From Nautilus pompilius (taxonomy: Eukaryota; Mollusca; Cephalopoda; Nautilida; Nautilidae): 64,000 nt of DNA. The notes under the pieces are model-generated. The model ran no database searches and was not told where the DNA came from. It saw only the letters and a program-made list of their open reading frames with translations. Numbering within the stretch: position 1 is the stretch's first letter; the number at the start of each line of letters is the position of its first letter. The stretch is taken from contig JACATO010001054.1 of NCBI GenBank assembly GCA_018389105.1, positions 437,001 to 501,000 of the forward strand. The letters run 5' to 3'. Shown piece by piece: positions 10,391 to 63,637 of the stretch. The position numbers and the translations under genes were made by a program.

Positions 10391-10900
10391 AGTGTTCTCA
10401 CACCTAAAGCATAACAATGTGTGAACATGGTGTGTGATCCAACTTGCTTGACACAGACATGAAACTGAATGTGCATCAAATGCTCCATGATTTTTAAAAG
10501 AGTTTGTTTTTTACTTGTCCCTAGATTAATTTTTATCCATTATGTAAAAAAATAACTCCTGCAATCTTTCACCAAAATTCACCTTTGTTTATGTGGGCCA
10601 CTTGACGTTTGAAAATTTGAGCTGCAAAGCTGTCAAATTCAGCAGATTAAGAGACCCAATTTTTAAATATTTAAATTTTTCATAGCTACTTGCCAGATAT
10701 AGGGATTTTTTTTAAATAGCACTTATGAAATCAATAAAAGGAAGTAAATAAACAACAAATGGCAATATTTTAGCCCAACAGACATGATTTTTGACCAGTT
10801 TACCAACATTTTAATGCAATTTTCATCTATATTACATTAACATTACGTCAATTTACATGTACAGTACACTGTACATAAAGAATACATTGATGTTGTCAGA
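10390..10900. other. Non-coding relic sequence
   Basis: AT-rich, no open frame of note. TAGGG occurs near 10697 and could be a decayed left terminus of element Q, but no matching right end was found, so I do not claim it. Confidence 0.3.
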
Positions 10901-11812
10901 TCTGCAGATATGCATAAATAATTCATGTGGAAAAGTTCTGTTCAGCTTATTTACAATGTTCAGATTGTCTATTTAGCTGTCAGTCTTTGCCTTGCGTTTT
11001 TGCAGATTTGGAAGAGACCGTCAGTCTTCCACAACTTGAAGAACATTTTGGTAGTGATCCTCACTTCTTAATGCAGAGAGAAAATCAGAACTTCACTCCC
11101 CCGCTCAGCACAGTCATTGATGACATTAAGTGCATCACCATGAACTAGGGAGGCTTGATAGGCAGCAGACTCTGACCATGCTTCAACAGGCTGTGCTAGG
11201 AACTCATGATTTATCTCAAGAATATTCATTGTGAACCATGAGTCCCTCAATACTAAATCAGCAAGTGTTGTAGATTCTGAGTTGTCTGAAGGAAATTTTG
11301 GCTTTCCAAAGCCAGTTCCATAACAGTCTTTTGGAGTGACAAAGTCGCTGTTCTGTTGGTACTTTGTTACTGAACAGAGCAGTGGGTACCATTTCAGAAG
11401 TCAGGTATCACATAATGAGTGAATGCTGAAAGTGCACTATCTGAAATGGTTGGATTAACATCCTTGTACTTCAATATTTGTCAATACAGAAGCAGGTCAT
11501 TATATGGAGCATCAGTGGCTGAATCAGCTGCCAGCCACCAAGAACTATACAACAAAGTTACAAAGTTAACAAAGACTCAATTTTGGCAATTGGTGCTTTG
11601 TAGTGATGGTTCCTGCTGGGAGTTTTTGAATTTAAAACTCAAGTAAGCATACGAGTATCTTTAAGGAATACAACAGCTTAGCCATCCACCTAGCTTTGTT
11701 TAGTGCCCCAGACTGCTTGAATTTCACAGTTTGTTCAGCTCCGAGAAATATTAAACACAACTCCACAAACTTGCGATAGTTTTCAAGTGATTTAAGAATG
11801 AAAACAGATTTC
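10900..11812 (-). pseudogene. Element Q, C-terminal half of the transposase-like protein
   Basis: The minus strand reads ENYRKFVELCLIFLGAEQ then FKQSGALNKARWMAKLLYSL. In layout this matches residues about 470-515 of the intact G protein (EDYFEFLQLAALFLGG...PGAIHHARWMSKGIYCLK). Near the end it has NVINDCAERG, matching VVNDAAERG of G. The N-terminal half of the same kind of protein lies at 60811-61750, also on the minus strand, and everything between is younger insertion. The middle of Q (D1 and D2) is missing, apparently through a deletion at about 11812 that also removed the end of element Z. Confidence 0.62.
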
Positions 11813-11814
11813 CA

Positions 11815-14336: not shown

Positions 14337-15033
14337 TTTTTTCCTCCTTTTTTTGGTGTGGTGCTAAAGTTGGGGGGGGTGTTTGTGAAGTTGCATATGT
14401 GTGTTTGGGAGCTGGGTCAGTTCCACGACCGGCCGCTACAGCTGTTTACAAGTGAGGCCTTATTTCGACCTGTGTATTGTGTGAATGTTCCTCAATGTAG
14501 CAAGAGCAGCGGACTACCCAACTCCTTTGTATTGCACGGCAGGAGGGGTAGGTTTCTCCAGGCTGAACTCTCTATAACAGAGTTTTCTCTGTGTATCCTT
14601 GAACTGAGAGGAAAAGTTTGGGCCACTGTTTATTTTTAAAATTTCGAATTGGAAGTATAGGATGGGGTAGGTTCTATTTTTATTTTTGTAAGTTGATGGA
14701 TGGAGACATGTTCTCCCTCCGTTTTCTGATCTTTATTAGTCCTCCCTTGTAGGGGTATCACAGATTCCCGTGGTTCTTATTAAGAGAAGAAAACAAATGA
14801 TCTTTATGATCATTGTTTTATCCCATGTAGGGGGACCAAAGGTTCCCTAGTTGGTGGTCAAGCTGGGAAGTAGCCCGACTGTTGTGGTGATTGTCATCAC
14901 GACGGCCGGTGCCCCATTCCACATCACTTTTAATTCTTGAATCTTCTTAAGCTGTTAAATGGACTTCTGTGTGTGGAGTTAAATGAAGAAAGAATCATGG
15001 TTAGTCCATTGGGGGATTATTTGGGATGGAGTA
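14337..15033 (-). other. LINE T 3' UTR, distal part
   Basis: Non-coding sequence from the T-rich run (the A-rich tail of T on the minus strand) to the Tigger-U insertion at a TA. No open frame of note. The other part of the UTR is 17446-17864, which contains a purine-rich run of gaaag/gaaga units at about 17690-17760. Confidence 0.6.
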
Positions 15034-17445
15034 CAGACAAACCTCTCATCAACGGAGTAATAGGGGGGAGGGGTGGTCCGTTAAAGCCGATTGTCCGTAG
15101 ATGGGAAGGGATTATTTTTGAGTCATAAAACCACTATAGTAACTATCAGTAGTTATGATCATGATGTAAATAATATAAACGTGTATATATGGCATAAATA
15201 AATATATACTGTATATATACAGTACTAAAAAATACAGTATGACACTTACGTAGAATAGCATCGATAGTGCTCTATCTCTCAAAGGGAATAATATTAATAT
15301 ATACGGTTAAAAAAATACAGTAACATTACATTTATTATAAATATTAAAATGTACACTATAGTGGAAATGGAGTTTTTTTTCTGCAGTGATCACATAGTGG
15401 TGACTCAGGTTGGTTTATTATTCTGAGTCCGAGAAGCTAGAAAGTTCCTCTGAAGCACTGCTGGTGGCTACTACAGGTATTTGTGCAGTGCTAGTGCTTG
15501 GGGTGCTCTGGTCAGGTGTTGGAGAGACGGTTGGGGTGGGTTTAGGTTTAAGAAATGAATCCAACATTAATTGCTTTCCACAAGTATACTGTTCACGAAT
15601 TATTAATTCTCTTAATGTCCGGAGGTGTTGATGATAAGCTTGAATGGAAGAATTATCTGTTGTATTAACGAATTGTAAGAGAGTGTCAATGGAATCTCAT
15701 ATTCGAGACATTTTTGGTTTCACTACCACCTCTTCCTCCGAGTCACTGGAGCTCTCTACTGAATCTTCACCAGCCAGAACTGATTCTGCTATTTCCTCCA
15801 TGGAAAGAACTTGGTAATCGGGATCGGCATCGTTCTCTTCAAGCCAATTTTCGATATCATTAAGATTAACATCTTTTTCTCCAGCATATGATAAAACTTT
15901 GTGAAAATCCTTTGGTTCGAAACCTTCAAAGTCCAGTTCAGGATCTTCACCCATCATTAATTTTTTCCAAGATTTAGAGAGAGTTGTCATTTTGACATCT
16001 TTCCAAGCTGACGCAAAATTGTAGATACCAGATTTCAGATTATAGTTTTTAATATTGTTTACTGTTCGCTGTCCTCTTGTGTTTCCTTTCATATCTTCCT
16101 CTTCCTTGATGACCACTAAGACTTCATCTAGATATTTACGCTGATAATGCCGTTTACATGACACAATCACTCCTTGATCCATTGGCTGGATTAATGAGGT
16201 TGTGTTGGGTGGAAGGAAAATTGCACGGATTCTACCGTCTGCGCTTACGAGTTTTTCTGCGTTCGGATGTGCTGGTGCATTGTCAAGGACAAGAATAGCC
16301 TTAATATCTTCAGGGGCAATATGCAATACTTCCTCTTGAAAATTTCGCACTTCAGGAATGAAATGATTAAAAAACCAATCATAAAAAATGGCACTATTGA
16401 GCCAAGAGTTTTTTGTGTTGTAATACACAACTGGTAACTTGTTTATGCAGTCCTTGAGACAACGTGGCTTAGCTGCCTTCCCTACAACTACAGGCTTGAG
16501 GCGGTGGGTTCCCAATGCATTCACCCCCAATAGAGCAGAAACTTTGTCCTTGCTGATTTTTTTGCCTGGAACTTTGTATTCATGCTTAAGTGCCTGGGTA
16601 TTTCTTGGTAGAGAACGCCAAAACAAAGCAGTTTCATCTGCATTGTAAATCTGTGACAATTGTAGATCTTTCTTTATAAGTTCATTAAATTTCAGTCTGA
16701 ACGGTTCAACAGCACTAATATCTGCACTACCAGCTTCTCCATGTTGCACTTTGTTTTGAATTCCATGACGATTACAAAATCGCCATAGCCAACCATCACT
16801 AGCTTTAAATGAATTAATTCCCAGTTTGCGTGCTAATTTGTTGGCGGCATTAGCAATCTCCGTCCCCCGAACGTTCACGTGCACTGATCAGTGTTGAACG
16901 TACCACTTGTATACCGCTTCCTCCAGTTCCTTACTTTTAGGAACTTTCATATGCTTACGCTTACGAACAACACCTTTCCCATCTTAGCATGGATTGACTT
17001 CAAACTTCACTGCATAACTTCTGAGTTTATCCTTAGCTTTGCATATGTCACTATCTGTTTGTTTCTTTACACCATATTCCTCGCACACTTTTGCAACCGA
17101 AACTCCAGCCTCTAAGTTCTTAAGAAGCTCTAATTTATCACTGATACTTAGGTATGTATGCTCCCGTTTTACACTTTCCTTCTGCTTCGATGACATGATG
17201 AGGGCTGAACAATTAATATATTAATCAAATATCGAAAATAATATATTTCTCACAGCTACTTTCTCACGCACGCGCTAATGTATCGTACTGTATGTTGTTT
17301 ACAATTGAAAGGCCCGCCAACGCCGCCAAGCGGTCACTTTTCGAACTAATGAAATACATTGCTGACGATTTGGAAGTGTTTTTTTTTTTTTTGCCTGCAG
17401 ATTTTGTCCATTGCATCCGAAGTCCGTTGATGGGGGGTCTGTCTG
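15034..17445 (-). mobile_element. Tigger-U: complete 2.4-kb pogo-group transposon
   Basis: Left end cagacaaacctctcatcaac, right end gttgatggggggtctgtctg. They match as inverted repeats with few changes and sit between TA dinucleotides (15032-15033 and 17446-17447). The length of 2412 bp is typical for Tigger1-type elements. The 3' non-coding part holds a perfect 18-bp palindrome at 15207-15224. Inserted in the LINE T 3' UTR. Confidence 0.92.
15697..17196 (-). pseudogene. Tigger-U transposase (TIGD/jerky-like), two in-frame stops
   Basis: Start MSSKQKESVKREHTYL at 17196. An N-terminal pogo helix-turn-helix (SDKLELLKNLEAG...VAKVCEEYGV) comes first, then a second CENP-B-type DNA-binding region ending NKLARKLG and DGWLWRFCNRHGI, then the DDE core. 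Catalytic candidates are YNADETALFW, LVLDNAPAHP and QPMDQGVIV. The tail is acidic (EDSVESSSDSEEE). All 500 codons stay in one frame. The only visible breaks are TAA near 16985 and TGA near 16887. The enzyme would cut the element out at TA sites. Confidence 0.9.
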
Positions 17446-17864
17446 TACTTTACAAATAAATAGAGGCTTACACTGAAGAAGGGGAGGGGTTGGGATGTTA
17501 TTAATATTATTTTGGCAAAGATTAATTATTTATGGTAAAGAAATTCATGATATGAATTTACATACAAGTATGAGGATTGGCATATAAGTCCAAAGATAGG
17601 AACTCTTGGAAAGAGTTATTAAAATCCGAATAGTATCCTATATGAAGAAGGATTTATTAAATCAATTAATGTATGCTTTAAATATAAATGAGAGAAAGAA
17701 AGAAAAATAGAATAGAAGGGAAATAAAAGGAAAGAAGTGAGAAGAAGAAGAGAAAGAAAGATTCTTCTGTTTCAGGAAGCTAAGTTGTCTTCATCTGAAA
17801 GAAAAGGATTAAAATTATACATAACAAGGAAGGAAGGGGTTGACTCAGGGTGGTTGGTCTAAGG

Positions 17865-20450
<2,586 letters not shown>

Positions 20451-20998: not shown

Positions 20999-22529
20999 CA
21001 GGGGTCACCAAACATTTTTCACAGTGGGCCGGATAACTGAAAGAATGACGAGCACGGGCCGCATAATCATTCTTTTCAATATTTGCAAGCCAGAATGAAA
21101 GCTCTGGGAAAAAAGACGAAACACTAAGTTTAGCATTCCATGTTAATCATTGGTTAGTGGCGTGCAATGCACAAAAAACAAAGACAACCAACATATTTAT
21201 TTACTAAAAAGTTATCAAAGAAGGTGACGTTAGCAAAAATATAGTTACATCAGACCTAGTGTGCACATATCCGAATCTTACAAACTAAGCAGCAAAAAAG
21301 ATTAGTGAGATTTGTGAAACTGACGTTTGGCTTTCAAGATATCATCAATGTCTGGTTTGGAATTGCTGCATCCAATCAAGAGAATTGCTTTCAAATGTTC
21401 ATCAGTCAATCTCGTTCGATGTGTTGACTTCACATACATCATTTTTGAAAATGTTTGCTCACAGACATAAGTTGTTCCAAACAATGATGCCATACCAGCA
21501 GCAAATTTCTTCAATTTCGGAAACTCAACATCAGGTAAAAAGCGGTAAAATTCAACAAGTTTTCCTTCTCTGTGCTTCTCTTTCAACAAGTCATTTGCTT
21601 GCAAATCAATGAGCTCCAACTGTAGTTCAACTGGCACATCATCAAGGTTACAATCAAACGGATTCTGGAACAGAAGAATGTCACTCTCAATTCTGTCGAG
21701 ATCTGCAAATCTCTCCAAAAATTGCTTCTTCAAGTCACAAATAATCTTTTTAGGAAAATCGAGGTTGACATCTTCAGCAATTGTAGCGCAAAACTCTTTG
21801 AAACAGTGAAAATGAGAGAAGTTTTCTCCTTCCAGTTGTGCTTCAAACAATGACAGCTTTCTCCGAAATCCTTTGATGATTCTGTAGAGATCACAGACGA
21901 GGTTATCCTTTCCCTGAAGTTTCAAGTTCAGTTCATTCATGTGGGATGTAATGTCGACCAAAAATGACAACTTTGACAGCCAGGTAGGATCTGACAGCTG
22001 TGGATCAGCTCTATCCTTTTCAGTGAGAAAAACATCTATTTCATTTCGGAGCTTGTAAAAACAAAACAGGACTTTACCGCAGCTGAGCCACCTTACTGCT
22101 GTGTGATAAGGCAAGTCACAGAAATCAGAATCAATTTCTTCAAGAAAAGCCTGGAACTGACGGTGATTGAGTGTGCTCTTTCAAAACGGCAACACTTTCG
22201 CTGCATACCACGCAACTAGCTTTCTGGTCCTTTGTTTCCACAAAGAAGTACTTTACTCCCCATTCTTCATTGAAAACGCAACACTCGGCGTCCACTTTTC
22301 TTTTCTTTGTAGCCATAATAAAGGGTGAAGAAAAACAGCCTAGAGACCAGCTCGATTAACACCTTGACCAGTGAATTTTTCTGAGCCTTCTTGCCCATGA
22401 TGTGTCAATTATTCATGAAAAAATTTAATTTCACAACATCTCATGTTCCATCCGTTTTATCACACAAATGCAAGTACCGTCGGCGGGCCTGATGAACTGA
22501 CGTCGCGGGCCGCAGTTTGGTGACCCCTG
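20999..22529 (-). mobile_element. hAT-F: internally deleted hAT; right flank displaced by G
   Basis: Left end CAGGGGTCACCAAAC, right end gtttggtgacccctg. The left octamer is cactaggc (20991-20998). On the right only cac follows directly, because element G is inserted 3 bp into the duplication. After G the octamer cactaggc is complete (25080-25087). At 1.5 kb it is about half the length of its relatives. Inserted in LINE T ORF2. Confidence 0.93.
21302..22316 (-). pseudogene. hAT-F transposase with large internal deletion
   Basis: Start MATKKRKVDAECCVF at 22316, BED finger CVVCSESVAVLK, then a direct jump to HRQFQAFLEEIDSDF. The D1 and D2 regions (about 250 residues) are gone. The rest is well preserved: TAVRWLSCGKVLFCFYKLRN, TSHMNELNLKLQGKDNL and GTTYVCEQTFSKMMYVKS, ending KRQFHKSH. 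The deletion also shifts the frame, so only the BED finger part would be made from this start. GTF2IRD2-like clade. Confidence 0.87.
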
Positions 22530-22532
22530 CAC

Positions 22533-25074: not shown

Positions 25075-25082
25075 CCCTGCAC

Positions 25083-26062
25083 TAGGCAATTAATTGAACT
25101 ATTCCAAATTCTATCCCATGGAAGTGTTCCTGAATTTAGGGTACCTTCTCACCTCTTCCTATAATTCGGTTCCTCAATAGGTCGTGATGACAGAAAGAGG
25201 TAGATATCTCGTGATAATTTGTCTAGATCAATTTTAGTAGTGCCTAAGCTTACTTGGTTATCTGTTCCTATAGATATGTTGCAGTTAATCCAGTGTTATA
25301 GAGCGGTTATATGGTAGTCTGTTAGTAAGTTTTTTGTGCTCTTTATAATTTTAGTTTGTGAGTGAGAACATGTACACCATCGAGGGTGTCATATGCTTTT
25401 GCTAAATGGGTGATAAGGGGTTTTTGCCATCTTGGTCTATTGTTTACTGTTCTTATGATATCTATTATATTTAATATTTGTTGAGCACCTATTTTGCTCT
25501 CTAGATTTATGAGATTTAAACCACTTTGGCTCCGAGGGAGTCTAGTTATCTGTTTATTAGCCAGGTGTTTACGTCCCTGCCACAGAAATCGATTTAACTC
25601 TGTGTCTATGGAGGAGCGTACCCAACCTGGCATTCCTATTATTTTAGATTTATAAAAGATTTTGGAAGCCAAATAGGTGTTAACTAATTCTGTTTTAGTG
25701 AAGAAGGAAAGGTTTAGAGAGGTCCATGCAGTTAGTAAAGCTTTGGCTTTATTAATTACAGGTTGCCAGTTATCATGCTGAATGTTAGTAGAGTTTTTGA
25801 CTGGAAAGAAGATACCTAGTAGTTTGATTTTGTCTTCCACCCATTTGATGTTGTATTCGCGCAGGGGTGTTCGGGTACCCTCGAGCCATGCTGCTGTTTT
25901 CTTTCTGTTTATTATTGCCCCAGAGGCTTTTTCATATACCTCTATGGCTTTGAAAGCTGCATCCAGGCTGGCCGCATCTTGTATCAGGAGGGTGGTATCA
26001 TCAGTGTATTGCTGAATTTTGATACCATTAATCCCCCTGATTGCACTGTACAACAAATTACA
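25083..26062 (-). pseudogene. LINE T ORF2, end of reverse transcriptase
   Basis: Starts with CNLLYSAIRGINGIKI, which continues EPVAALIC at 33698 once element B is removed. QQYTDDTTLLIQ is the RT active-site box (YxDD form). Then come SGAIINRKKTAAWLEG, LLGIFF and the thumb-like region to LTHKL. A stop near 25343 and decayed sequence lead to NCLVDAYTSD at 20998. Confidence 0.87.
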
Positions 26063-29595: not shown

Positions 29596-29616
29596 CTGAA
29601 AAAACAACAACAACAA

Positions 29617-44186: not shown

Positions 44187-44213
44187 TTTGTTTGTTTGTT
44201 TGTTTGTTTGCTG
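44187..44213. repeat. (TTTG)n microsatellite, 3' tail of LINE R
   Basis: Several uninterrupted TTTG units. On the coding strand of LINE R this is a CAAA tail at its 3' end, directly next to the target duplication. Confidence 0.85.
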
Positions 44214-46383: not shown

Positions 46384-46713
46384 GAGTAAAAATATTTTTA
46401 TTCTGAAATATAAATAAAATAACGTTTCATAAAATAATTATTATGAAATTATTTAAATAAATACCGACCTCAATCGAATAAAACAGTAACATGTATTGTT
46501 ATTTATACACTTATTAAGATGAACACAATCAACTACACTGAAAATACATATGTTGTCACTGCACTAGTCGCAACGGGGCCGCAAGCGCATTTTATTACCA
46601 CAGCACTTGCGTGGTGCATCACGTTAAATATTGTGTGTTTGTGAAATAACATATAAACTGAAATTCAAGTGTTTGAATTTAATTTTCACGACCCCATAGT
46701 TTAAGAAGCACTG

Positions 46714-47196
46714 TTTTAGAGTTTCTATGGGTTTTCGCATGAGGGATTGCGGTGGCTGGCCTATCTCCTCCGGGAAGCAGTGTGTACGGGCACAGTGGTT
46801 GATGATGTGTTCCGCCGTCTCATCTCCCATTCCACACTTTCGACAGATAGTGTCCGCCACTCATCTGATTTTTTGTATCCAGTACTTGAGATCTAGGTGG
46901 TGTCTGCTACAGAGGTGACTCAACGTCACCTGGTCTGCTCGGGACAGTTGACTCTCTTCCTTGCGGTTGATTGTCTCACCCCTCTCGCTGTAGATCTCCC
47001 ATAATCTGGTGTGTTGAATCGGCTGACTGTGGGTACTTCATCTTATAGTTGCTTTTGCTGACTTAAATTGACTGTGTGTTGTTTTGGTCTTTCTTCACCC
47101 CTTCTTTCGCTTGGGTATTGGCCAATTCATTCCCTTTAACCCCGCAGTGGCTTTGACACCATGTAAAGGTTAAATGGCAATTCCGTTCATGTAGGT
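46714..47196 (-). pseudogene. LINE R: end of RNase H and C-terminal finger
   Basis: Reads TFTWCQSHCGVKGNELANTQ AKEG (end of RNase H: the H and D/N region of the W.P.H.G..GNE.AD type), then after stops ADTICRKCGMGDETAEHIIN HC, a C..C...H...C finger common at the C-terminus of such LINEs. It joins 44187-44339 downstream and 55682 upstream. Confidence 0.75.
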
Positions 47197-48466
47197 CAGG
47201 GGTCAGCAAATACTTTTGGCCGTTACCCAAATTTGCTTCATCTGGAGTCCTCGTTACCCCATAACTAAAATATTGCTTCATCCGAGATTTTTCATGTGAA
47301 ATAGTAGTGCAACATTTTGGTTCATTTTTTCAAAGAAATAATACTTTTTATGTACTTTCCCTGCAGCTATAAGATAGTTGATGGTAATTAATTAAGACTT
47401 AATTATTTATTAAAATTTATTAAGTGATAAACAAAAATGCTAAGGCAATACACTACCAAAAAAAATTTATTTGAAACAAAACACTCACAAAGTTCTTAGT
47501 GAGAAAAATGATAACGCTTTATTGCCTCCATAATTTCATCAAGACGTGGTGTTTTTGAGGTCAGGGCTATCTGCAGGTCGTTTGCTGGAGCCAAGCGATT
47601 TCTGTATTTTGTTTTTATATTTGCAAGGGCAGAAAATCCTTGCTCACACAGGTATGTTGTAGCAAACAGAAGCAAGACTTTTGTTGCTTGCGAGCGAGCA
47701 AGAGGAAACGCTTCCACTGATCTTGACATCCAAAAGTCTTGTAAGTTCTCTTTTGAATCATATGCGATTTGAGCTTCATTGCAAGCCCGAAGTTCCAAAA
47801 CTGCTTCCGCCAATCCTTCCGGCTCCTCTGGTATGTCAGCACTCATACAAGCGAAAGGATTCACGACCCAACTCTCAGCCTTTTTATCAACATCAGGAAA
47901 ATACTCTGACATACGTTCCCTTATTTTCGCAAGGTGACCAAACACAACGTCAGAGTCTTCCAAAAACTCTGCCAAGGCTGGGAAAGCAGATATTTTCATT
48001 TGTTCAGCCTTCTGGAGCCACAGCTCAAGTTTTGATTTGAATGAAGTGATTTTTCCGCTTGCTGAGATGATGTCATTTTGTTTCCCTTGCAAGTCCTTGT
48101 TCAGAGAATTCACGTGTTCGAAGATATCGACCAAGTAAGCAAAAAGTGCAAGCCATTTGGAATCACGAAAATGCTGTGCAAGACTTTCTTTGTTCTCAAG
48201 AAGAAAGCTCTCAATTTTGTCTTTCAGAATCCATACTTGTTTGAGAACATTTCCACGGGATAGCCACCTAGCCTCTGAATGAAACAACAGGGTGAAAAAT
48301 TGCAACTCCAAACCTTCACAGAAGTCGCGGAATAGTTGGGTGTTGTATACATTTGCTTTTACAAAATTTACTACTTTAATCATGATTCAACACCTCTTCA
48401 AGTTGGGGCTCAAGCCGTTTCACAACCAAGGCTTGGTGATGAATCATACAGTGAGTAGTCACTATA

Positions 48467-50803
48467 CACTGGCTCCCCAACTTACGAACACAATTGGTTC
48501 CGAACAGCTGTTCGTAAGCTGAATTGTTCGTAAGTCATTATATGGTAATTTCCGATCTATAATTAGCAATTAAGGGTATTTAAAACCACTTATATATACG
48601 TATATGGTAAATAAAGAAAGATAAGACATAGAAGATGTAATATTAAAGATTCAAATAATGAGGATAGTTAATGAAAATAATAATGACAATAAATGTTATT
48701 TACCTTTAAAGCGAAGTTGCTGAGCATACGTAGATGGTGGAGGAGGAGGAGAGTCATTGTTGAGAGGAGGAGAAATCATCGGTTGCCTTGTTTACATCGT
48801 CGTTAGACTCTTCTAAAAGAGTTCGTTTAGGCGAAGCTGCTGAGGTGGAAGGCATTGGGGATGGAGGTGCAGACGAAGGTGCAGAGGACTCGGTGGCTGG
48901 GGTCGCAGACCTACGTTTGAAGAAACTGTCTATTGAAGTCTGTCTGGTCTTTTTCTTCTCATCGTAGATGATACGGTAGCACTGTAGAGCGTCGTGAATA
49001 GCGGTTGATACCTTCAAGAACCTCTCAACATTTGGGTCTTGACCCTCCAAAAGCATCAACCCCTCTTCAAACTTCGAAAAGGCAGACGCAAGAAGCTTTG
49101 TTTCGAACTTCTTGGTGGGAAGTGGTTCTTCTTCGGCTTCCTGTTCCTGTTGGCGCTGCATCTCTTCCAACTCCATAAGGTCTTCGTTGGTAAGCTCCTC
49201 TGAGTGCGACTCGAAAAGCTCCTCAAAGTCCTCCAAGTCGAGCTGCAGGTTCTTGCTGATCTCTATCAGGCTGGCAACCACTTTCCTGCTCTCCTCCTGT
49301 GGGTTGAAACCCTTAAAGTCGTGGCAAAACTGTGGGGTCAGGTACTTCCATACACCATGCATATTTGATTGAGAAACCTCACGCCACACAGCATCGATAT
49401 TCTTGATGCAGTCGTAAATGTTATACGACTTCCAGAAGTCACGTAAAGTAGTCTTGGCGTTCTCCTGGTCCACGGCTTGAAGTGCTTGTCTGTGCATCCG
49501 TCGGGGTAGTATTTCTTTAAGTTGGAAATCACACCCTGATCCATCGGCTGTATGAGAGAGGTGGTGTTGGGAGAGAGATAGACCACCTTAACGTCCGGGT
49601 GGAAGTCGTCTAAGTGCGGTGGATGCCCAGGAGCGTTATCCAGGATCAAGAGAATCTTGAAGGGGATCATATCTTCGCGACAATAAAGCTTGACCTCCGG
49701 GATAAAGTGGTGGTAGAACCAATCTTCAAATATCGCAAGAGTTACCAGGCCTTGTTGTTATACATCCAAATAACGGGTAATGAACTCTTGGTCACGTTCT
49801 TAAGAGCTCGGGGGGGGGGGTGCAGCATGATAGACAAGGAGAGGCTTTAGCTTAAAATCACCAGACGCATTTCCGCCAAGCATCAGGGTAAGTCAATTCT
49901 TGGCTGCCTCGTACCCTGGCATGCTCTTCTCCACTCGACTGATGTACATCCTCGTTGGCATCTTCCAGAACAGGCCAGTTTCGTCAACGTTAAAGATCTG
50001 TTGGGGGGTGTATCCGCCAGCATGAATGATACCCTTCAGGGTAGAAGGAAATTCTTCGGCAGCCTTCTTGTCCGCACTTGCAGCCTCACCACTCAGCTTA
50101 AGGTTGTGCAGATTGGCACGCTGTTTAAAACGGGCGAGCCAACCGATCAACGAAAGAGAAAGAGGCATTCGTCTTTGGTTCATGTTGTCCAGCCATATAC
50201 CAAGGAGTTTTTCCATCTCTCCTATGCACTTGCCTCTTTTCTTTGAAATGATAGTGGATGCCATTGACACAGAACTCTTCACATGTTCCATGATACGATC
50301 CTTGCCCTTGTAAGTTGTGCCGATGGTTGACCGATTCAAACCATAGGCACGTGCTACATTAGCCATCTTCTCGCCACTGTCCAACTTCTTAATGATGGCC
50401 ACCTTCGTTTCCATCGAAATTGCCTGACGTTTCCTGCCACTACCACTATCATCACTTGCCTTATGCTTTTTGCCACTATCACTAGCACTAGCACTCGATT
50501 TATTAGCCATGATAACGGATAAAAATGTCTCTGTAAAGTATCCGAGGGGACATAAATGGGACGCACTGAGATGCTTACAGCGACACGTGGAGCAACGAAC
50601 TGAGCGAGATGAGGGAGGCTGGGATGCTGCAGATGGAACGGTTCTGCCCAGCGTTGGTAGCAGCAGAACAGTGAACTAGTCGGATGTGGCGCGCAATCCA
50701 AATGACGGACTTGCGGCAAAATAACGCCATTTTCCGAACACACATATAACATCAGTCAGCTCGCGTTCGTATCTCCGAATGTTCGTAAGTAGGGGAGCCA
50801 GTG
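48467..50803 (-). mobile_element. Tigger-M inside hAT-L
   Basis: Left end CACTGGCTCCCCAACTTACG, right end cgtaagtaggggagccagtg. TA on both sides (48465-48466 and 50804-50805). Length 2337 bp. Inserted between the D2 region and the CxxH region of the hAT-L gene. Confidence 0.93.
48754..50510 (-). pseudogene. Tigger-M transposase (TIGD1-like) with C-terminal PIP-box-like motif
   Basis: Start MANKSSASASDSGKKHKA at 50510. Pogo HTH: METKVAIIKKLDSGEKMANV ARAYGLNRST. CENP-B-type domain to GWLARFKQRANLH, then FNVDETGLFWK, LILDNAPGHPPHLDDF and QPMDQGVISNLKKYY as the three catalytic regions. Breaks are a TGA near 49893 (KN*LTLM), a shift at a G-run near 49810 and a shift near 49500. The C-terminal tail has RQTSIDSFFKRR, matching the PCNA-interacting consensus QxxIxxFF. 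Pogo transposase is known to bind PCNA, so the tail may be functional in the parent element. Confidence 0.88.
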
Positions 50804-51968
50804 TATTTGAATTCTGCTTTTTCACGAGTGCAACAAAACCATTTAAGCATCCGAGCATTGCCGGAGCTCCATCCATGGAAACCGCCACCCATTTCAAGCC
50901 AACCTCAGGAAGATTGAAAAACGAATTTACTTTTTCAAAGACATCCACTCCGCGAGTTTGCAGCTCAAGAGAAGCGCTCAGCAGCATTTCTTCCTCGATT
51001 GTTCCTTCACACCTGTATCTGGCATATACCATCAGCTGAGTGTCGGTACTTGTATCAGTTGTCTCATCCAACTGAATGGCGTGTTTTTATTGCAGAAATT
51101 ATTTGTTTTCAGATGTCTTCGGCCAACATAGAAATTCGATGTTTCACATTTTTCACAGATAAAGCAACTGCATCAATTCGCTTGGATTGCTCCTTGCCAC
51201 ACATAGTTTCCACAAGTTTCAGCGCAGCGGGCTTCATCAATTCCTCTGCGATTGTATGAGGTTTCTTCTCGCAACTAGCCAAGCCACCTCAAGGCTTGCT
51301 CGTACTGCTTCCCTTTGATCAAAAGTACAATTCATCATGTTTTCCAGCCACTGCTTTTTCACTCCTAATTCCAAGTTCTCAAAATAAGCCGGAGGTTTGG
51401 ACGAAAGATCGGGATGAACATTGTCCAGGTGCTTTTTCAACTGATTTTTTTTTCAAGGACTCAACTCCTAGTACCTTCTTGCACACAATGCATTGTGGCT
51501 TCTGCTGTCCTCGATCACTTATTTTCGTGAACCCATATTTCAAGAACTCAGCTTGATACGTTCTTTTTCTGTTCGATGACATATGGGGGTTAAAAATAAA
51601 ATGTTATTTGTAAGATTCAAAATTGGTAATATCTGGAAAAAATGTACTAAAAACTGTAGATGGTTTTACATGTTATTGGAGCATGAAACAGAACCAATGA
51701 ACAATAATGAGCAAATGTGGGTGCAATAGTAAAAATGTAACCTAAAATATTCTCCTGTCAACTTGTTTAACTTGCACTCATAAATCTACTCAAGCCAGGG
51801 TGAAAAAGAGACACAATTGGAGGTTTTGACACAGAAAATAAGCGGTTAGGTTAAGTTACACACGTTTATATAGGAAGCGAGTTAGCCAATTGGGTGTGAC
51901 CTTGGCAGGACGCTGATTGGACGATGTAGCTGTGCACATGTTCGGATCGCCAGCAAGGCAGTGCGCAT

Positions 51969-54900
51969 TAGGGCAGGTCGATTTTCAACTTTTTTAAAAA
52001 TCGCAATATGAGTAAGTATACAGTAGTTGCATCTATTCAAGTAGTACACAATAAAAAAAAATTAGGCTTTTAGGTTAATGTTCCGCTTGCGGATTTGCGA
52101 TTAAAGTTTAATTGTGTTTCAAGTTTATTTCATATTCTATATTTTTTATCATAAGTTACATAACATTTGGAAAAGAGAACAATATATTTCCATAATGACC
52201 CAATAAAACTAGGAATATAAATGATCATATGACTGAGAATAATGTCCTTTTGACATAAACACTGGACGCATTTTCCTGCTCAGCAGTTTCGTAAGGATAG
52301 ATCTGTGTCGGGCCTCAAACCCATACACTGAATGAGAAGCTTCTGTCACTAACTTTACACTCCTTTCAACGCTCTGAGAATGACATGGTAGGTTTGGAAT
52401 ATCCGGTTTTGTGCTCTTGTTGATGAAGGTCTGGATTTCCTCATCAGAAAAGTGTTGTGTAGTTGGTGGCTCCATTGTACCAGCGTCAGGAAGGTCAATA
52501 AGCTCTGGCCAGGTGTCAGTGTCCCAGTTCACTGGAGGAATTTTCTTTTCCATTTCTTGGCTGCTGTTCATTCTGGAAATAAAAAAAATGTATATTAATA
52601 ATATCGGCCTAATAATCAAAACTATTTCCTTATTATTTTTGCTCTGAAAATTCGAAATATAAAAATTCCACAGACGTTGCCTAAGTATTCTGTTCAAATC
52701 TTAATATATTATTTTGAAAATAAAAATATCTAGAATAACAAATTTTGCAAACAATACCTGCGTCTGAGAGTAAGAATTGTGTGAAGTCCAAGATTTCTGA
52801 TCTGGTCATCATCATCTTTCACCATGGCGTAAAGGAAGTTTGCAGGTAGCAGGCAGAAAGCATTCCCCTGAATATTTTGTTTTACAATGCGTCTCACATC
52901 ATCAAACTGAATCAGTTTCAAGTGGTTGATGGTAGAGAAAAGAATGCGAGGTGAATCATGTAGTTTAGAGGACATCTTTAAGCTGAACCATGAGGGAGCA
53001 TAAACCTTGACGATGTATTGGATTAATTTTGTCAGATTCTTGTTTGGACTGTTGTCTCGTGTGTATAGACAAAGAAGTCGTATAGCAAGTGTTAACCATC
53101 GTGCATGGTTGAGTGGACCTATTTTCCAGGCTGCCCATCTATCATCTACTCTTCCCACTCCGATACCCTTACAATATTCATAGAGAAGCCTTTGATCATG
53201 ACTGAGATCCTTCAGTACCTCATCTGGAATGTACTCATCAGTAATTGGTGTTTGAACTGGCTCAAACTGTACTTGTGGTTCACCATGAATATCTTCTAAG
53301 CACCTTTTCCCAAGGGGTCCATTGAAGCTTCTTGGGCCAGTTGTTCCATCCAGTTTTTTAAATAGGGCTCTTAGTGGAAGTTCATTTTGATGAAGGGCAC
53401 AGCCAATTGTGTGCAGCTTCCTCCCAAGAATTTCTTCTAGCTTTACCACCAAACCACTCTTAGAACCAGTGTTTGTTGCTGTATTGTCAAGAAGAATAGC
53501 ATGTATACTCTCAAGGCTGTCATATTCTTGAAGAACACTGAATGCTTCCTGAGCAAGAACATCGCCAGTAGCACCTACAACAGGTATTGTTCTGTGGGTC
53601 AAATAGGTGCCTGGAGATTTTCCATCTTCATATGTGAATGTGAGATGATGTTCTGTAGCAACACACTTTTTGAGAACATTTCCCCCTTCTTGCGCTTCTG
53701 TTTCCTTATATGTCAAGGTTTTATCATCAAGCTTTCCATCTACACCCATGCAAACGAGGTGTGTCTTCGTCTCTGACTCAACTTCTTCACTAATTACTCT
53801 TACTTTTGATTTAGCCCTGTCTAACTTACACTTGTCAATTAAGATTTGATTAATGTCAACCTCTGGCCTCAATAGGTGTTTGATGTCATAGAGCAAGGCA
53901 TTACCAAGAGCTGCCCCAAGACTGGAGGAACATTCAGCTCTGACAAGCTCCATAGCATATCTGGGAAACTTGAGAAGGTTGTAGTCTCCTGAAGTCCTCC
54001 TGTTAGGCTGCCATTCATCTCCCTGAAAATATAAGAATCACAAAAGATTAGATAGGGAATATTACTTCTTCAGCAGATTAAGATACAAGAAAAAATGCAT
54101 TAATTTTTGCATGAAGTAGTTGTGATTCGAAATACTAACATAGCATACAAGGTAATGATCGTTTAGTTCATATATACTAAGGCAAAGAAAAAAAAACACG
54201 AACCTCAGAATTTGATTGTTCAGGGATATCTGTAGGCTGTGTAGAAGGTCCTGCTAATTCAATGTCCTCCTGAGATAAGACATGTTGCTCTCTCAGTTTA
54301 GCTCTCCTATCTCTTTTGGCAGCAGATATGTCCACCGAAGACATCTGAAATGCTCCCTTGGGTCCTGTTTTTGAACGCTGATCTCGAAGATATGCTCTTT
54401 CTTCAATTGGCACCTTTGCAGCTGCTGGACAAACGCAGATGATGTGTTCTTTTGTGCATTTGTCTTTTTTGCAATATATCCTAGAATCGTTGCAAGGCAC
54501 AATTTCCAGAGGACAGGAACAGGCTGATATATCAAAGAGTTTGTCCAACTTAGAATCCAGATTACGCTTAGCATTTGCTTTAGCATGCTTGCGATTTATG
54601 TCTTTCACAGTCACAAAGAGATCTTTAACTTTTCTGTCAATGGATTTTTCATGAATTAATGGTAATCTTGGATTCACAGACAACCAAATTGATTTCAAGT
54701 CCCTGGTAACATGCTGCACTTTAGCCCAAAAATCTGCACAGGGATCGGCACATTCTAGATAATAATAATATTGAATCAATTGTCTGTAGGTGCTGGGATC
54801 TGTGAGCACTAAATCACAAGGACCACCGCCATATTTCTTTCACTTTTCTTTCTTGTTAGCGGCGTTGTTTTCACTTTCGGCATTTTTTCAAAAATATCTC

Positions 54901-55443
54901 AGACAACCTTAAATGTAATTAAATTCAATATTAAAATCTGATATATAAATTAATGATGTTACAAACTCTTGTCTTCAGCTTGTAATATACTCATAATCCT
55001 CCCCCCTTTTTCCGATGATAATAATAGAAACACTCACTAAAATAATTATTATTACAGAGTAAGTTACTATGCAAAACACGGCCTCGCAATGACACTATAA
55101 GCAAGATTCCAGTCCGCCGTCGGCGCAAGGCAATACACCGTATATTTTCTAAAATAAACACAGAGAACCGTCCTTAAACTATAAATATATATATAATAGG
55201 GGGCTGGACACGCAGTGGTCCGTAACATTGACTTTTAAAGCATAGCAAGACAAGGACAGTTGAAAAAAAAATGGTTACATGCACCGAAAACACTAGTGAA
55301 AAAGTAAAATTAAACAGTTATTTCAAAATCCGCAAAAAGATATTCAAGTTAAACTCATATATTTGTGATTTTAACGTATTATACATGGAAATGCAACTAC
55401 TGATTGCTTACTCACACTCCTGTGTCAACATCGACCTGCCCTA
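51969..55443 (-). mobile_element. Element N: TAGGG-ended transposon with a three-exon gene
   Basis: Left end TAGGGCAGGTCGA, right end tcgacctgcccta. Perfect octamer gtgcgcat (51961-51968 and 55444-55451). Termini begin TAGGG like element G. Length 3475 bp. It sits in the 5' leader of hAT-L. The 3' non-coding part is 51969-52208; the 5' part, 54884-55443, is AT-rich and holds no open frame. Confidence 0.92.
52209..54883 (-). CDS. N transposase-like protein, three exons, early frameshift
   Basis: Exons are about 54204-54883, 52758-54022 and 52209-52572. Both introns (54023-54203 and 52573-52757, about 180 bp) begin GT and end AG, and joining keeps the frame: SNSE to GDEWQ (phase 0) and TLRR to RMNSSQ (phase 2). 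Exon 1 starts MPKVKTTPLTRKKSE, has one shift near 54840, then a Cys-rich part (CSCPLEIVPC, CKKDKC, CVCP). Exon 2 has VCMGVDGKLDD, LLDNTATNTGSKSG, IGCALHQNELPLRALFK and GPLNHARWLTLAIRLLCLY. Exon 3 has VERSVKLV. The order DGK, DNTATNTG, CxxH, HARW, ER.V parallels G. I do not recognise a named family; a divergent hAT-type transposase is inferred. Confidence 0.75.
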
Positions 55444-55681
55444 GTGCGCATGTATGTGCAAACGACGTTGATTGGGTGGCGGTCATGCATACGCTGCGTG
55501 ATAACAGCATGCATGTGAATAACAGCATGACTGAATGTAGTGGTAGACTACTTGCAGGCAGTTGCATAGTGCGTACGGCACGCACACGCACATCTCTGAT
55601 CAATTCCGAATTCCTCCATTACCCCCAAAAATTGACATTATACCCCGGCAGGGGTAATTTACCCCTATTTGCCGACCCCTG

Positions 55682-56404
55682 ATGTAGGTGATGGAGTAGT
55701 TCCAGCACCACCAACACCTCATTGCTTTCAAGGGTTGAAGTTTTTGGACATGTTGGAGCACCGACATTCTGTTTGTCATGATCCTGACTTTTCAGGAGTT
55801 TTCATTCTCTTGGATCAGGAGTGCTTTCTTGAGGACTTTGAACTCCGCCTGGAAGGAGGAGAAGCATTTCCCTGCTGGTAGAGTCGAATTTGTGGACTTG
55901 TGGATCGCTGGGTGGGCCAGTTGTGACAATGACGCCTCCGCCGCTGTCGGTTGCTGACCCGTCTGTGTATATGGTCATGTCATACTTTTCCCAGTCTTTC
56001 TCTAGGCAGGTGTATGCCGTTGTTCTATCGGTTTCTGGGTTGTTCGTCTTCTCACCTTCGAGTTCAAACCTGAGCGTGCCGGTCGTCAGCCACGGTGGCA
56101 GGAGTTTGGGGAAGGGCTTTGTGCAGGTCTCTCCAAATATCAATGACCACTCTCTTCTCTCGTTCCAGCTCTTTCTTTGTTCTCTGTCTTGTCTCGGTAG
56201 TCGCTATCTGGTTGCGTCAGAGGGATTTCTCCATGGCAATGATACTCAGTTGCTTGGCATGTGTCGCTATTGGTGGTAAGTTGGCCTCAGCTAAAATAGC
56301 TTCGTCAGGCATCATGTGGAGCTGCCCTGTGATGGCCCTTCCAGCAAAGTGTTGACATCCAGGAGGCCGCTGCATATTCCAGAATGGATCGGCCCATAGT
56401 TATA
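55682..56404 (-). pseudogene. LINE R: start of RNase H domain
   Basis: Continues WGYDKATLRT from 59853 with TMGRSILEYAAASW, a typical region between RT and RNase H. A decayed spacer follows, then LLPPWLTTGTLRFELEG, MTIYTDGSATDSGGGVIVTT (first catalytic Asp of RNase H in TDGS) and FDSTSREML (the catalytic Glu region, S.R.E). hAT-L then interrupts. Confidence 0.82.
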
Positions 56405-57329
56405 CGAGGTGTGTCAGAAAAAAAAAACAGGACTGGAGTCACAAATAATTTATGTTAAATCCAAACTAAAAGTTTTCCCCTTCAAAATAACCCCCCTTGC
56501 GTCTAACGCACTTTCCCATCCTTCTCTGCCATGCCTCCATTCACTCCTGGAAGGATTCTCCGCAGCTCCGTCGTCACGGCCCTCTTGATGGCTTCCACAT
56601 CCGGAAAACTGGTCCCCTTGATGACCCCCTTGAGCTTGGGGAAAAGGAAAAAAATCACTCGGAGCCAGGTTGGGTGAGTAGGGAGGTTGCTCCAGCAAGG
56701 TGATGTTCTTCTCGGCAAGGAACTGCCGGATGCTCAGGGCGTTGTGAGCCGGCGCGCTGTTGTGGTGAAGCAGCCACGAATTGTCCTGCCACAATTCTTG
56801 CCTCTTCTCGCGCACTGAATGAAGCAAACGCCACAGGATCTCTTTGTAGACATGCTGGTTGATCGTCTGGCCCTGTGGCAAGAACTCTATGTGGACAAAG
56901 CCCCTCACATCAAAGAACGCGATCAACATGAGTTTGACTTTGGTGGACTTCGACTGTCTTGCTTTCTTCGGCCTCAGCAACTCCGGACTCTTCCAGTGAA
57001 GGTTTTGATTCTTGGTCTCCGGGTCGTACTCAAAGATTCATGACTCATCACCAGTGATGACTCCCCCCAGCAAGTCTGGTTCGATTTCAAGACGCTCGAG
57101 GATGTCCTGACACACCTGCATGCGCCGCATGCCCAAATCTTCGGTGATAATCTTCCAGACGCTGTCGCGGTTCATGCCCAGCTCACTTGCGATCAGTCGA
57201 AGAGTCAGCTGACGAGCCATGCACCACCTGCCTCACGTGCTCAACATTGGCCTCAGTCCTGCTCGTTGAAGGCCTTCCGCTCCTGCGGTCGTCTTCCACT
57301 TCCTCGCATACCTCTTTGAACCTCTTTTG

Positions 57330-59530
57330 CAGGGTGGTCGAACTCAAATAAGCAAAGGGCCATTATTGATCAGGTTTATGCAAGTGAGGGCCACTCTCCA
57401 AAAAAGTTTGATTAAAAAAGATATTTATTAATACTTATACTAATAGAAAAATTTATTTACTACAGTAGCTAGTGCGAAATTTGAGGTTTTTTGTTTTTAA
57501 CTAATTCTACAAAATCAATTTCTAAGTCAGTTAGTGCAACTCTGACACATGAAGCTAGTGTTTCATCATCTAGCTGATTTCTCTCTTTTGACTTTATTTG
57601 ATTCATAAGAGAGAAGCTGCTTTCACAAACATAGGTTGAAGAAAACATTGAAAGCATGTGAAGTGCAAAGTTATTTAGTTCAGGATATGATTCTGCATTT
57701 ACCAGTTTCCAAAATTCTAATGGATTGTCAAGGTTTTGAGAAAGAAGAAAATGATCTTCTTTCAGCTCACATAATTCCAACTGCAGTTGAGCAGGTGCCT
57801 TATCCACTTCTATAGTAAAGGAATTGCTCAGTATCTTAAGGTGAATTATTTGGAAGTCCTGAAATCTCTCTTCAAATTCAGTAGAAATATCACTAAGTAT
57901 GGAAACGTAATCTGAAAAGTCAGTTTCTTTATCAGCAAATACTTTCTTGCAGCTTGTAAAGTGTGTCAAATTGTTTTCCTTTAATTGTGGAATGAATAGT
58001 TTGTTCAACTTCAAATTGAATGCATCAATTTTACCCACAAGATAACAGATATCATGATTTCTTCCTTGAATTTGTTTGTTCAGAACATTTAGGTGTGAGG
58101 TAATGTCAGTCAAAACAGCTAATGCAGATATGAAATCTGGATTTTTCAGGTCATTCTCAAATTGAGTAGTGTTAGCAGATATTTCACTTTCAAAGAAAAC
58201 AAGAATTTCATTTCTCAATGCAAAGAACCTCTTCAAACAATCTCCAGCACTTAGCCATCTTACATCACAGAAAAGTGACAAATCTGGATAAGCATCATTT
58301 ACCTCTTCTAAGAAATTTCTGAATTTTCTGTGAGTTAAAGCTCGAGCACCACCACGAATAAAATTAACCATTTTAGTGATAGACTTCATTACAGGATGCA
58401 GTCTGGCAGACTTGGCACAAAGAGCTTCTTGATGAATTATACAGTGGTGTACTGGAACTAAGATAATGTTTTTTCTCAGCTCACCCACAAATCCAGTTTT
58501 CTGGCCACACACAGCAGGTGCTCCATCAGTACAGACAGATGAAAGTTTTCCATATTTAAAATCTTCATTTATAAAATTTCCAACTACCATGTCAAATGAT
58601 TCAAATATATCTTTTCCTGTAGTTCTTCCAGACATTGATTTCAGATCCAAGAGTTCAGTTGTCACATTAAAATTGTATTCAATAATTTTAATAAAAATAG
58701 ATAGTTGACATATGTCACAGTTGTCTGTACTTTCATCAAGAGCAGCTGACCAATATGCACAATTAGCTATTTTGTCTTTCAGAGTTTTTTCCAGTTGTAA
58801 GTCAATATCTTGAACTCTGGTAGAAACAGTCTGGTGTGATAGAGAAACGTTTTTAAATTTATCAGCAACTTCTATTTTTCCAAGTGATTTTGCCATTTCT
58901 ATAGCACATTCTTTAACAATCTCTGCTGTACGAAAGGATTTACCCTTTTTAGCCAATAATAAAGATACACGATAGGAGGCATCCAAATACTGAGCACTAG
59001 CAGTAGGAGTTATGATTTTCAAATTCTTAAAAATATTCTTCTGTGCTGTAAGTTTATCAGTTAATTGTTGCACAAGCACCAGTCTAGCAGCTTTTCCTAT
59101 CACAGTCATATTTTTTAGCATGCGTTTTATAATGACGACTCACATTATATTCTTTCGAGCAGCTGATAGTTTGATGACAATCAAGGCATTTAATAATACC
59201 ATTTTCCTCGATGCATAAATATTTATATGTCCAGTCTGCATTAAACTTACGATGTTCAGAGTCAATTTTTCGCTTTCTTGATACATTAGACGCCATGACA
59301 CGAAAACTGATACTAATTCAAATTAAAATGAGATTTATGAATACGAAAAATGTTTGCGAAAAACCTTCAAAATTAACGGAAATTAATTACTATATATGCG
59401 AAAATAATTCATATATAATTTTGTTATAATATGTAAAAATTTATTTAAAGAAGGAAAAATTTTTTAAAATTTAGTATGACCTCGCGGACCACATTTTAAG
59501 GTACTGAGGGCCGTATGTTCGACCACTCTG
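57330..59530 (-). mobile_element. hAT-O: BED-type hAT inside mariner-P
   Basis: Left end CAGGGTGGTCGAAC, right end gttcgaccactctg. Octamers ctcttttg (57322-57329) and ctcttgtg (59531-59538) differ at one base. Excision rejoins FEWHK with RFKEV of mariner. Length 2201 bp, compact. Confidence 0.92.
57469..59296 (-). pseudogene. hAT-O transposase (GTF2IRD2-like), one frameshift
   Basis: Start MASNVSRKRKIDSEHRKF at 59296. BED finger CLDCHQTISCSKEYNVSRHY, a single shift near 59100 (THAKKYD to IGKAARLVL), then 530 open codons: D1 in AALDESTDNCDICQL, D2 in VCTDGAPAVCGQKTGF, HCIIHQEALCAK, LTHRKFRNFLEEV, VRWLSAGDCLKRFFALRNE, TSHLNVLNKQIQGRN and SSTYVCESSFSLMNQIKSKE, ending KKPQISH. Apart from the shift it is well preserved. 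Confidence 0.92.
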
Positions 59531-59852
59531 CTCTTGTGCCACTCGAAAACCCGTGAGCGCAACATCATCTCATCTCCGTACACTTGCTGCAGTAGTCCAA
59601 GTGCTTCTGACAGAGTTTTTCCTAGCCGGACCAGACATTCAGGTTCGTTGCTCTGTGCCCATCGCTTGACGGCCTGAAATTGAGGATCTGTTAACAAAAG
59701 CACATGAAAAAACATACAATGGCTGCAGAGAGCTGAGATCGCATTTATATACTCCCTGGATATTACATCACATGGTGACACAACCCACTAATCCCTACCC
59801 CACTCAAAGCTCACCAGCAAACTAAGTCCTGTTACTTTTCTGACACACCTAG

Positions 59853-60274
59853 TATACGTTCTGAGAGTGGCTTTGTCATATCCCCAGTCTGTGGTTGCCA
59901 GTCTACGGAGGGCACCTACTTGACGCTTTACTTTGTTGCCTACTTTGGCCAAATGCTTCATGAAGATAAGCTGGCGGTTATGGGTTACTCTGAGGAACTT
60001 GGGATTCTCATTGAATTGGATAGGTGCACCAGCCATTGTAAGTGATGGTCACCATTTGGCTTCATGTGAATTGGTGGTGAAAAAGGAGGTCTCTGACTTC
60101 TGTACCGAAAGCGTCATCTTCCATCTATGACTCCAATTGGTTATCTCATCGAGTGCATTTTGGACTGTTGTGGCAGCTTTCTGAAGGCTTTTTTCTTGGG
60201 CCCATATAGCCACCACATCAGCAAATATGCTGGCTTTGGTGTTCAGTAGTTGGTCTGGTAGGTCTTGCAACTCT
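59853..60274 (-). pseudogene. LINE R: truncated reverse transcriptase
   Basis: Begins at DLPDQLLNTKASIFADVVAI, where the RT active-site box FADD reads FADV, then WAQEKSLQKAATTVQNALDE and ITNWSHRWKMTLSVQKSE. After a stop comes FLRVTHNRQLIFMKHLAKV and GALRRLATTDWGYDKATLRT. Everything upstream of the active-site box is missing, as in a 5'-truncated insertion. Confidence 0.85.
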
Positions 60275-60810
60275 TGATGTTGCTGTGTCAAGTGCAGCGG
60301 TATCTGTTGTATCAGTGATGAACCAATCTTTAATCTTTGGAAGTTTGCTAATTTTCTGTTTCTCATCTGCAGCTCATTTTCTCTTCTGTGCTCCACTCGT
60401 ATAGGTACGCTTCATTTTGTTCAAGGAACTGTCCACCTGAAAATAAAAATAAACAGTTTAATTAGAAATTTGGACAGCCTGACTGGTCCTATTTTACGTT
60501 TTAATAGTTCTACAGTTAAGTTTAATTAATTATAATTTAATTGTACTTATGTAAAGGTTGAATAAGAGATATTATACTGCTGACAGGTAAAATTTGTGAA
60601 GATAATTATATTCCCACACAAAAAGTACAAGGAATGTGGTAAGTTATGTTATAATAATATATGTATGTCTAAAGAAAAGAAATGTTTATGTGCTTTCACT
60701 CTGTCAGTGTTTGTGAATGGAATGTACAATGTACCCACTTATTTTGGGGCCCCGCTTTGCGTGGGGCCTTGGGCAACTGCCCATCAAGCCCATTTGTTAA
60801 GACGGCTCTG
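60275..60810 (-). pseudogene. hAT-Z terminus, leader and N-terminus
   Basis: Start MKRTYTSGAQKRK at 60415, one TGA, then AADEKQKISKLPKIKDWF and TDTTDTAALDTATS. This basic N-terminus is typical of ZMYM1-like hAT proteins (SGA.KRK...LPK). Upstream a pyrimidine run ending ttttcag at about 60437 looks like a splice acceptor, so a leader intron is possible. The terminus at 60810 reads CAGAGCCGTCTTAAC inward, with ggccccacgcaaagcggggc as a subterminal hairpin. Confidence 0.68.
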
Positions 60811-61750
60811 AGAACTTGCTATACCTTCACCAAACTTTCTCCTTGATCTGTTGGCAGTAGAATATGACATTGCCACTTTTTAACACATTGCCTCCAGATT
60901 CTTCAATTAAAGCTGCTGTAAAAGAAGCTTGCTGTGTTGGGGTGATGTTCATTCGTGTAGCTATGGATACAAGTTTTGTAGACTGAAGAATGTTGTGGGG
61001 AATGAATGCTTCAGTTCCAGTGTGAACTGTGCAGTGATGACTTTTTGTGGCATTTGTGGATGCAGGCATCGTATTACTATTGGAGGAAGGTGCAGTAACA
61101 TCTCCAGATGCAGATGCTGAAGAACTGCTGGATAAAGATGCAAATGTAGTAGCGCACACATCAATATCACTTGTGTCTGTATAAGTTTCAGTTTCACTAA
61201 AGCTCTGGAGAGTAGCAGATACCCTTGATATCTCTTCATTTTTCTCACGTCTCCTTAATTCTGCTTTAGCACGTTCTTCACTCCACTGAATTCTTTGAGC
61301 CAACACCTTATCACTGGGTCCAAATGTAGCGTACGGTCTGTCTTCATTGATTGCAGAAACTGCAAGTCTTCAGGATTTTTTATCAGTTTCCATGCATTAG
61401 CTTGTCACAGCTGAAAATTTTGATCAAGTTTAGTTTCAACTTGTTGTAATTTAGAGAGGGTAGCTGGTGAAGAACAATGATTAACAGGTATGCTTCTGAG
61501 TTTGTTATTATCATCCACAAGCTTTATTATTTTTTTACATGCCTTGTGTTCTGTAATCATGGAAATATTGGCTTTCCCATAGAATGACACAACTTTGAGA
61601 AGCACAATTTTTGCAAATTCCCACTTTGCTTGGTTCTTTGATGCACCCTTTTGAAGATGGTACATCATGCAGCATAATACTGGTCTACATGTTGGGAGTC
61701 ATGGGCCATTTATTTGTGAATCATCATCAGTAATGCCTTTTCCAAGCCCA
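60811..61750 (-). pseudogene. Element Q, N-terminal half of the transposase-like protein
   Basis: Blocks 61405-61668 (CCMMYHLQKGASKNQAKWEF, ITEHKACKKIIKLVDDN) and 60827-61306 (LAQRIQWSEERAKAELRRRE, a Ser-rich linker, then ILQSTKLVSIATRMN and QQASFTAALIEESGG). The arrangement (helical N-terminus, basic segment, Ser-rich linker, then a conserved helix) parallels residues 20-260 of G. It ends QIKEKVW*RYSKF at the border of hAT-Z. The rest of the gene is at 10900-11812. The far terminus of Q was not found. Confidence 0.6.

Positions 61751-61873: not shown

Positions 61874-63637
<1,764 letters not shown>

Follow-up and report, generated by a model that had tools for sequence, protein, structure and literature searches.

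Among described systems, the closest to the locus reported here are flamenco and the flamenco-like loci of Drosophila. In the passages cited these are large loci of many transposon families, inserted mostly on one strand opposite to the presumed direction of transcription; they were found by their same-orientation content, for which long terminal repeat (LTR) elements were used, and the bias among LTR families is driven by Gypsy alone (PMC10643416). Clusters producing PIWI-interacting RNAs (piRNAs) in the mollusc Lymnaea are described as showing enrichment of young DNA transposons, hAT types among them (PMC6128900). In flies, antisense insertions in the 3' untranslated regions of host genes can start piRNA production, the case cited being one retrovirus-like element (PMC13226689), and large germline piRNA clusters have been reported to be dispensable (PMC8516431). 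How genomes choose and keep transposon memory is still debated. Here, a nested transposon array of Nautilus pompilius is described. The window analysed is a stretch of 64,000 nucleotides (assembly GCA_018389105.1, contig JACATO010001054.1, here C1009, positions 437001-501000); window coordinates are used, negative ones lying left of the window. The window holds a nest in which every coding element is on the minus strand, and this nest is part of a unistranded array of ~145 kb (C1009 ~422-567 kb), dense up to ~541 kb, its far end being a single isolated hAT. The array comprises about three dozen elements, many of them nested, to a depth of six levels, and all in one orientation. Judged from its sequence, it is probably a flamenco-like unistrand piRNA cluster retaining antisense insertions of every class.

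The assembly searched comprises 727.6 Mb in 2558 contigs; 100 kb was fetched on each side of the window and the 264 kb was read as one contiguous stretch. For the strand test, 34 transposon proteins of the window were compared with this stretch by tblastn and the matches merged into blocks. Between -15 and +130 kb, 38 of 38 blocks were minus (60,961 bp minus, 0 bp plus); the queries were all minus-strand frames, so that blocks within the window include self-matches, and blocks are not insertions. Blocks inside the array but outside the window, which are free of self-matches, were minus in 15 of 15 cases (23,025 bp). Plus-strand relatives, which such a search would have shown, were absent between -31.7 and +149.5 kb, and the four blocks in the fetched flanks beyond the array were all plus. 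Among flank frames not covered by the queries is one on the minus strand whose RNase H match is sub-threshold. A list made by hand has 38 insertions, of which those at -11.3 and 67.9 kb are weak, and the two-sided sign probability for 36 insertions of this list is 2.9e-11.

Eight families chosen from the window were placed genome-wide, with only the best candidates kept, so that the counts are lower bounds. Matches of one family on one strand within 3 kb were merged, copies on C2314 duplicating those on C2019 were dropped, and the window copy of one long interspersed nuclear element (LINE; T, below) was added by hand. At least 734 copies were mapped, 376 plus and 358 minus. On chaining copies up to 40 kb apart, all nine clusters with at least three copies were strand-uniform, where 1.38 would be expected and 20,000 draws gave at most 6: C1009 (17/17), C2097 (9/9), C1354, C2029 and C602 (four copies each), and C314, C349, C1116 and C605 (three each). 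Clusters were likewise uniform at other chaining distances (6/6 at 20 kb, 12/12 at 60 kb and 13/13 at 100 kb), and a separate count of six families with a 100-kb window gave six loci with at least three copies, each of them uniform. Outside C1009 and C2097, pairs of different families lay on the same and opposite strands in ratios of 17:1 (<10 kb), 14:3, 12:5 and 22:10 (50-100 kb) in successive distance classes, and farther apart in ratios of 13:29 (100-200 kb), 43:32 and 51:62 (400-800 kb). Opposite-strand neighbours do exist, for example on C2082 and C597. A second long array, known from these placements, lies at C2097:157778-231964; nine of nine copies are minus, and the same families are represented there largely by other members. 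It is not a copy of the window array: identity to the window members is 36-51% for X22, hAT-C and Tigger, and 100% and 97% for the partial X52 and hAT57 members.

These counts bear on two other explanations. An ordinary transposon-rich region, nested by chance and with a coincidental orientation, is easily imagined, nesting being ordinary in repeat-rich DNA and most of the elements belonging to known types; it is nonetheless already contradicted by the sign probability, the 15 blocks outside the window and the nine uniform clusters, unless mapped copies are not independent insertions, and we regard it as highly improbable. Insertion itself, and not selection, could be polarised, local replication or chromatin setting the direction of entry, and this would also produce uniform arrays at several loci. 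Integration chemistry differs, however, among hAT, TA-targeting Tigger/mariner, CACTA-like and LINE elements; no mechanism known to us would polarise them all, and the eight families divide almost evenly between strands genome-wide. Polarised insertion is considered very unlikely.

A plus-strand HSP70-like frame (Pfam E 1.9e-40) has its stop codon at ~-20.04 kb, before the first element of the array, and the first minus-strand element starts at ~-14.9 kb, ~5 kb downstream of that stop. An actin-like plus-strand frame was also seen left of the array, at ~-46.8 kb (C1009 ~390.2 kb). We propose that a plus-strand transcript crosses the region; it may arise by read-through of the HSP70-like gene. 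Elements landing antisense to it would give rise to antisense piRNAs silencing their own family, and such insertions would hence be kept; sense insertions would not be retained. Repeated over time, this could yield many families, mostly of one or few copies, all on the minus strand and nested six deep. Three features by which a unistrand cluster may be recognised were found: one-strand insertions, a large, multi-family and nested locus, and PIWI proteins encoded in the genome. Two PIWI-clade loci were identified, on C983 and C865, their exons matching PIWI chains better than AGO chains, together with one AGO-clade locus on C2019, duplicated as C2314.

A transcribed array may also become biased without any extra machinery and without piRNAs. 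If a long unit of transcription enclosed it, be it a long non-coding RNA or a plus-strand gene with the array in one intron, sense insertions would be purged for ending or misprocessing the transcript, and a plus-strand gene, the HSP70-like one, is indeed close upstream. This gene stops before the array, however, and an array inside one of its introns was rejected on that ground. Intronic bias would be expected to be weaker than complete uniformity over diverse classes, and other contigs carry eight more uniform clusters. AATAAA is moreover not depleted on the plus strand across the array (161 plus and 175 minus, for Markov expectations of ~119 and 122), so that selection for one long unbroken transcript is not indicated. 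An origin of this kind seems unlikely to us.

The AATAAA count weighs against a piRNA cluster as well, and several other points do so. An intron or long non-coding RNA could produce the same bias. Two-copy clusters give a less uniform picture, 29 of 39 being same-strand, and only two families are represented in each of C314, C349, C602 and C1116, four of the nine larger clusters. The eight query families came from the window itself, with only the best candidates scored per search. No LTR/Gypsy domain scored above cut-off in the array frames scanned (a part of all frames), unlike the flamenco-like loci of Drosophila. Finally, the evidence for a piRNA cluster is genomic sequence throughout. A wider proposal is possible, and is put forward tentatively: that the genome contains at least nine dispersed flamenco-like traps, with a polarity strict for all recognised classes (hAT, Tigger, CACTA-like and LINE) and not for LTR elements only, and that the window locus grew behind the HSP70-like 3' end by successive antisense capture, its nest being a time-ordered record of invading families.

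Within the nest, insertions were placed by 8-bp target-site duplications (TSDs) adjoining matched termini. A looser scan for termini was noisy (47 matches, compared with 18, 23 and 37 in block-shuffled sequence); a stricter scan was run without a shuffled control, and only strong termini also backed by coding or copy evidence were used. The elements of the main nest are as follows (TIR, terminal inverted repeat; RT, reverse transcriptase; MITE, miniature inverted-repeat transposable element).

12379 to 44190, minus strand: Z, host of J; DUF4371 (E 5.6e-9); uninterrupted relative on C2019
13570 to 44047, minus strand: J, hAT-type, in Z; TIR 13/14, exact 8-bp TSD GGTTAGAT
14335 to 42840, minus strand: T, LINE in J; RT, zf-RVT and endonuclease-like frame; borders approximate
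15032 to 17447, minus strand: Tigger/pogo element; DDE_1 (E 1.9e-37), HTH_Tnp_Tc5, TIR pair, TA duplication
17865 to 20450, minus strand: K18, hAT-type; TSD GTCTAAGG
20999 to 25079, minus strand: K21, hAT; TSD CACTAGGC, right copy at 25080-25087; X22 in its end
22533 to 25074, minus strand: X22, TAGGG-ended; TSD CCCTGCAC; intact 755-aa frame
26044 to 33681, minus strand: B, CACTA-like, in the RT frame of T; CACTGT ends, TSD TTG
27702 to 33104, minus strand: C, hAT-type, in B; TSD CATTAGAG
29617 to 29910, no strand assigned: MITE in C; TSD AACAACAA; present also in the C copy on C2029
29984 to 32948, minus strand: D, hAT, in C; TSD GCCTAAAC; empty site seen
35286 to 40800, minus strand: E, hAT, in T; TSD ATCTAAAG/ATCTAAAA
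36140 to 38711, minus strand: Tigger in E; TA duplication, DDE_1, HTH_Tnp_Tc5

A first-pass annotation of the window had proposed the order D in C, C in B, B in T, T in J and J in Z, and this inner nest was largely borne out: host frames close or tile across the insert borders, D and C have exact TSDs, and the D site is empty elsewhere. J in Z is supported by its termini and TSD, an empty site in L045 and the uninterrupted Z relative. The halves of J around T tile a relative, which places T in J; no TSD was found for T, whose identity comes from RVT_1 (below cut-off in one of two scans) and from a zf-RVT just left of K21. The site of E is empty in a LINE copy, T' (window -3723..-2327), and the halves of E flanking its Tigger tile hAT1698 at 15-258 and 265-510. 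The duplication of K21 is exact on both sides once X22 in its end is allowed for. The insertion of B in the RT frame of T was borne out; TACA, given earlier as its duplication, was rejected: the true ends of B are fixed by B', a near-identical CACTG-ended element elsewhere in the array (window 79485-84219, C1009 ~516.5-521.2 kb), which carries a different duplication, TAA, compared with TTG at B. CACT(A/G) ends with a 3-bp duplication, the basis for calling B CACTA-like, were thus found; its 330-aa frame had no Pfam match above cut-off, with sub-threshold RT_RNaseH scores. B' is itself interrupted by a different hAT (80875-83364, GGTTAAAT). The MITE was rejected as a separate late insertion, and predates the move of C to this site, since the C copy on C2029 carries it.

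Misjoined repeats could in principle mimic a nest, and the assembly does appear imperfect. Both C2019 and C2314 carry AGO exons, Z relatives and copies of X52, the AGO exons and the checked Z pair at a near-constant offset of ~147 kb, which suggests that the two contigs are duplicated haplotigs. Random misjoins would not, however, give rise to exact TSDs, frames that close or tile across borders and empty sites elsewhere, and an assembly artefact is considered highly improbable.

The outermost placements fared less well. Z was extended by eye to 60.3-60.8 kb, where its right end would be at ~60810; its left end was looked for and not found, and its earlier assignment to a further host, Q, was not confirmed. 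For the proposed parallel branch, the inserts in R were recovered, whereas R in Z was not confirmed, as the C2019 relative does not discriminate.

44190 to 60280, minus strand: R, probably a LINE truncated at its 5' end; carries H44, H47, the mariner frame and H57; approximate borders
44340 to 46713, minus strand: H44, hAT; TSD TTTTAGAG
47197 to 55681, minus strand: H47, hAT, hosting a Tigger and X52; TSD ATGTAGGT
48466 to 50804, minus strand: Tigger-type element in H47; TA duplication; only a CENP-B_N domain found
51969 to 55443, minus strand: X52, TAGGG-ended, in H47; TSD GTGCGCAT; protein of 435 aa or more
56453 to 57037, minus strand: mariner-type transposase frame; Transposase_1 (E 1.3e-13)
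57330 to 59530, minus strand: H57, hAT; TSD CTCTTTTG/CTCTTGTG

R reads as a LINE once its inserts are skipped, but this identity is weak, since its matches to RVT_1 (E 0.0064) and to RNase_H (E 0.0024) stay under the Pfam cut-offs. A similar stretch of ~43 bp flanks R (window 44110-44160 and 60275-60317), and its two copies align to one and the same part of the Z relative on C2019; this may be a target duplication of some length or else a repeat belonging to the threonine-rich part of Z.

The hAT set examined for an 8-bp TSD and short inverted termini (J, C, D, E, K18, K21, H44, H47 and H57) showed both, the TSD being exact in J, C, D, K18, H44 and H47 and having one mismatch in E and H57. The hAT dimerisation domain (PF05699) was above cut-off in E, K21, H44, H47, H57 and two hATs left of the nest, and just under it in D (21.1, cut-off 21.4). 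In J, C and K18 the scanned frames lacked a PF05699 match, with sub-threshold DUF4371 in the latter two; these three were assigned by termini, TSD and similarity to other hAT frames. X22, X52 and D are young, intact leaf elements of the nest. X52 has at least 41 other near-full-length matches at 99-100% identity and therefore moved very recently; its protein had no Pfam match, and neither had the X22 frame, for which a search of solved structures gave one chance-level match. Another TAGGG-ended element with an 8-bp duplication was seen in the right flank (64094-66977). At C623:461446 and C623:479221, D and X22 have near-identical relatives, separated by 18 kb and sharing one strand, which may mark a further array or a donor site. 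Scanning the window against Rfam and for tRNAs gave 0 matches each. Three further hATs of the array lie beside the nest.

1477 to 3777, minus strand: hAT left of the nest; TSD AGTTATAG/AGCTATAG
4277 to 6113, minus strand: hAT left of the nest
61877 to 63695, minus strand: hAT right of the nest

Like the flamenco-like loci in the passages cited (PMC10643416), the window array is large, multi-family and on one strand opposite to the presumed transcription. It differs in being composed of hAT, Tigger, mariner, CACTA-like and LINE elements, with no LTR element recognised in scanned frames, in its recurrence as several arrays, and in being known from genomic sequence only. Its dominance by hATs and its intact young copies recall the mollusc piRNA clusters, in the cited passages of which strand-uniform nested arrays are not described (PMC6128900); among open-licence titles and abstract openings, none describing such arrays of DNA transposons and LINEs was found. 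As in the fly case of antisense 3' insertions (PMC13226689), antisense elements lie downstream of the coding end of a host gene, here HSP70-like, and by analogy the array could have originated behind this gene in the same way. Whereas the passages on the fly case concern one element, about three dozen DNA transposons and LINEs are present here, and their relation to the 3' end of the HSP70-like transcript is putative. A locus whose insertion order can be read from its nesting, with a single polarity for all recognised classes and recurring on several contigs, would make the trap model testable outside flies and LTR elements.
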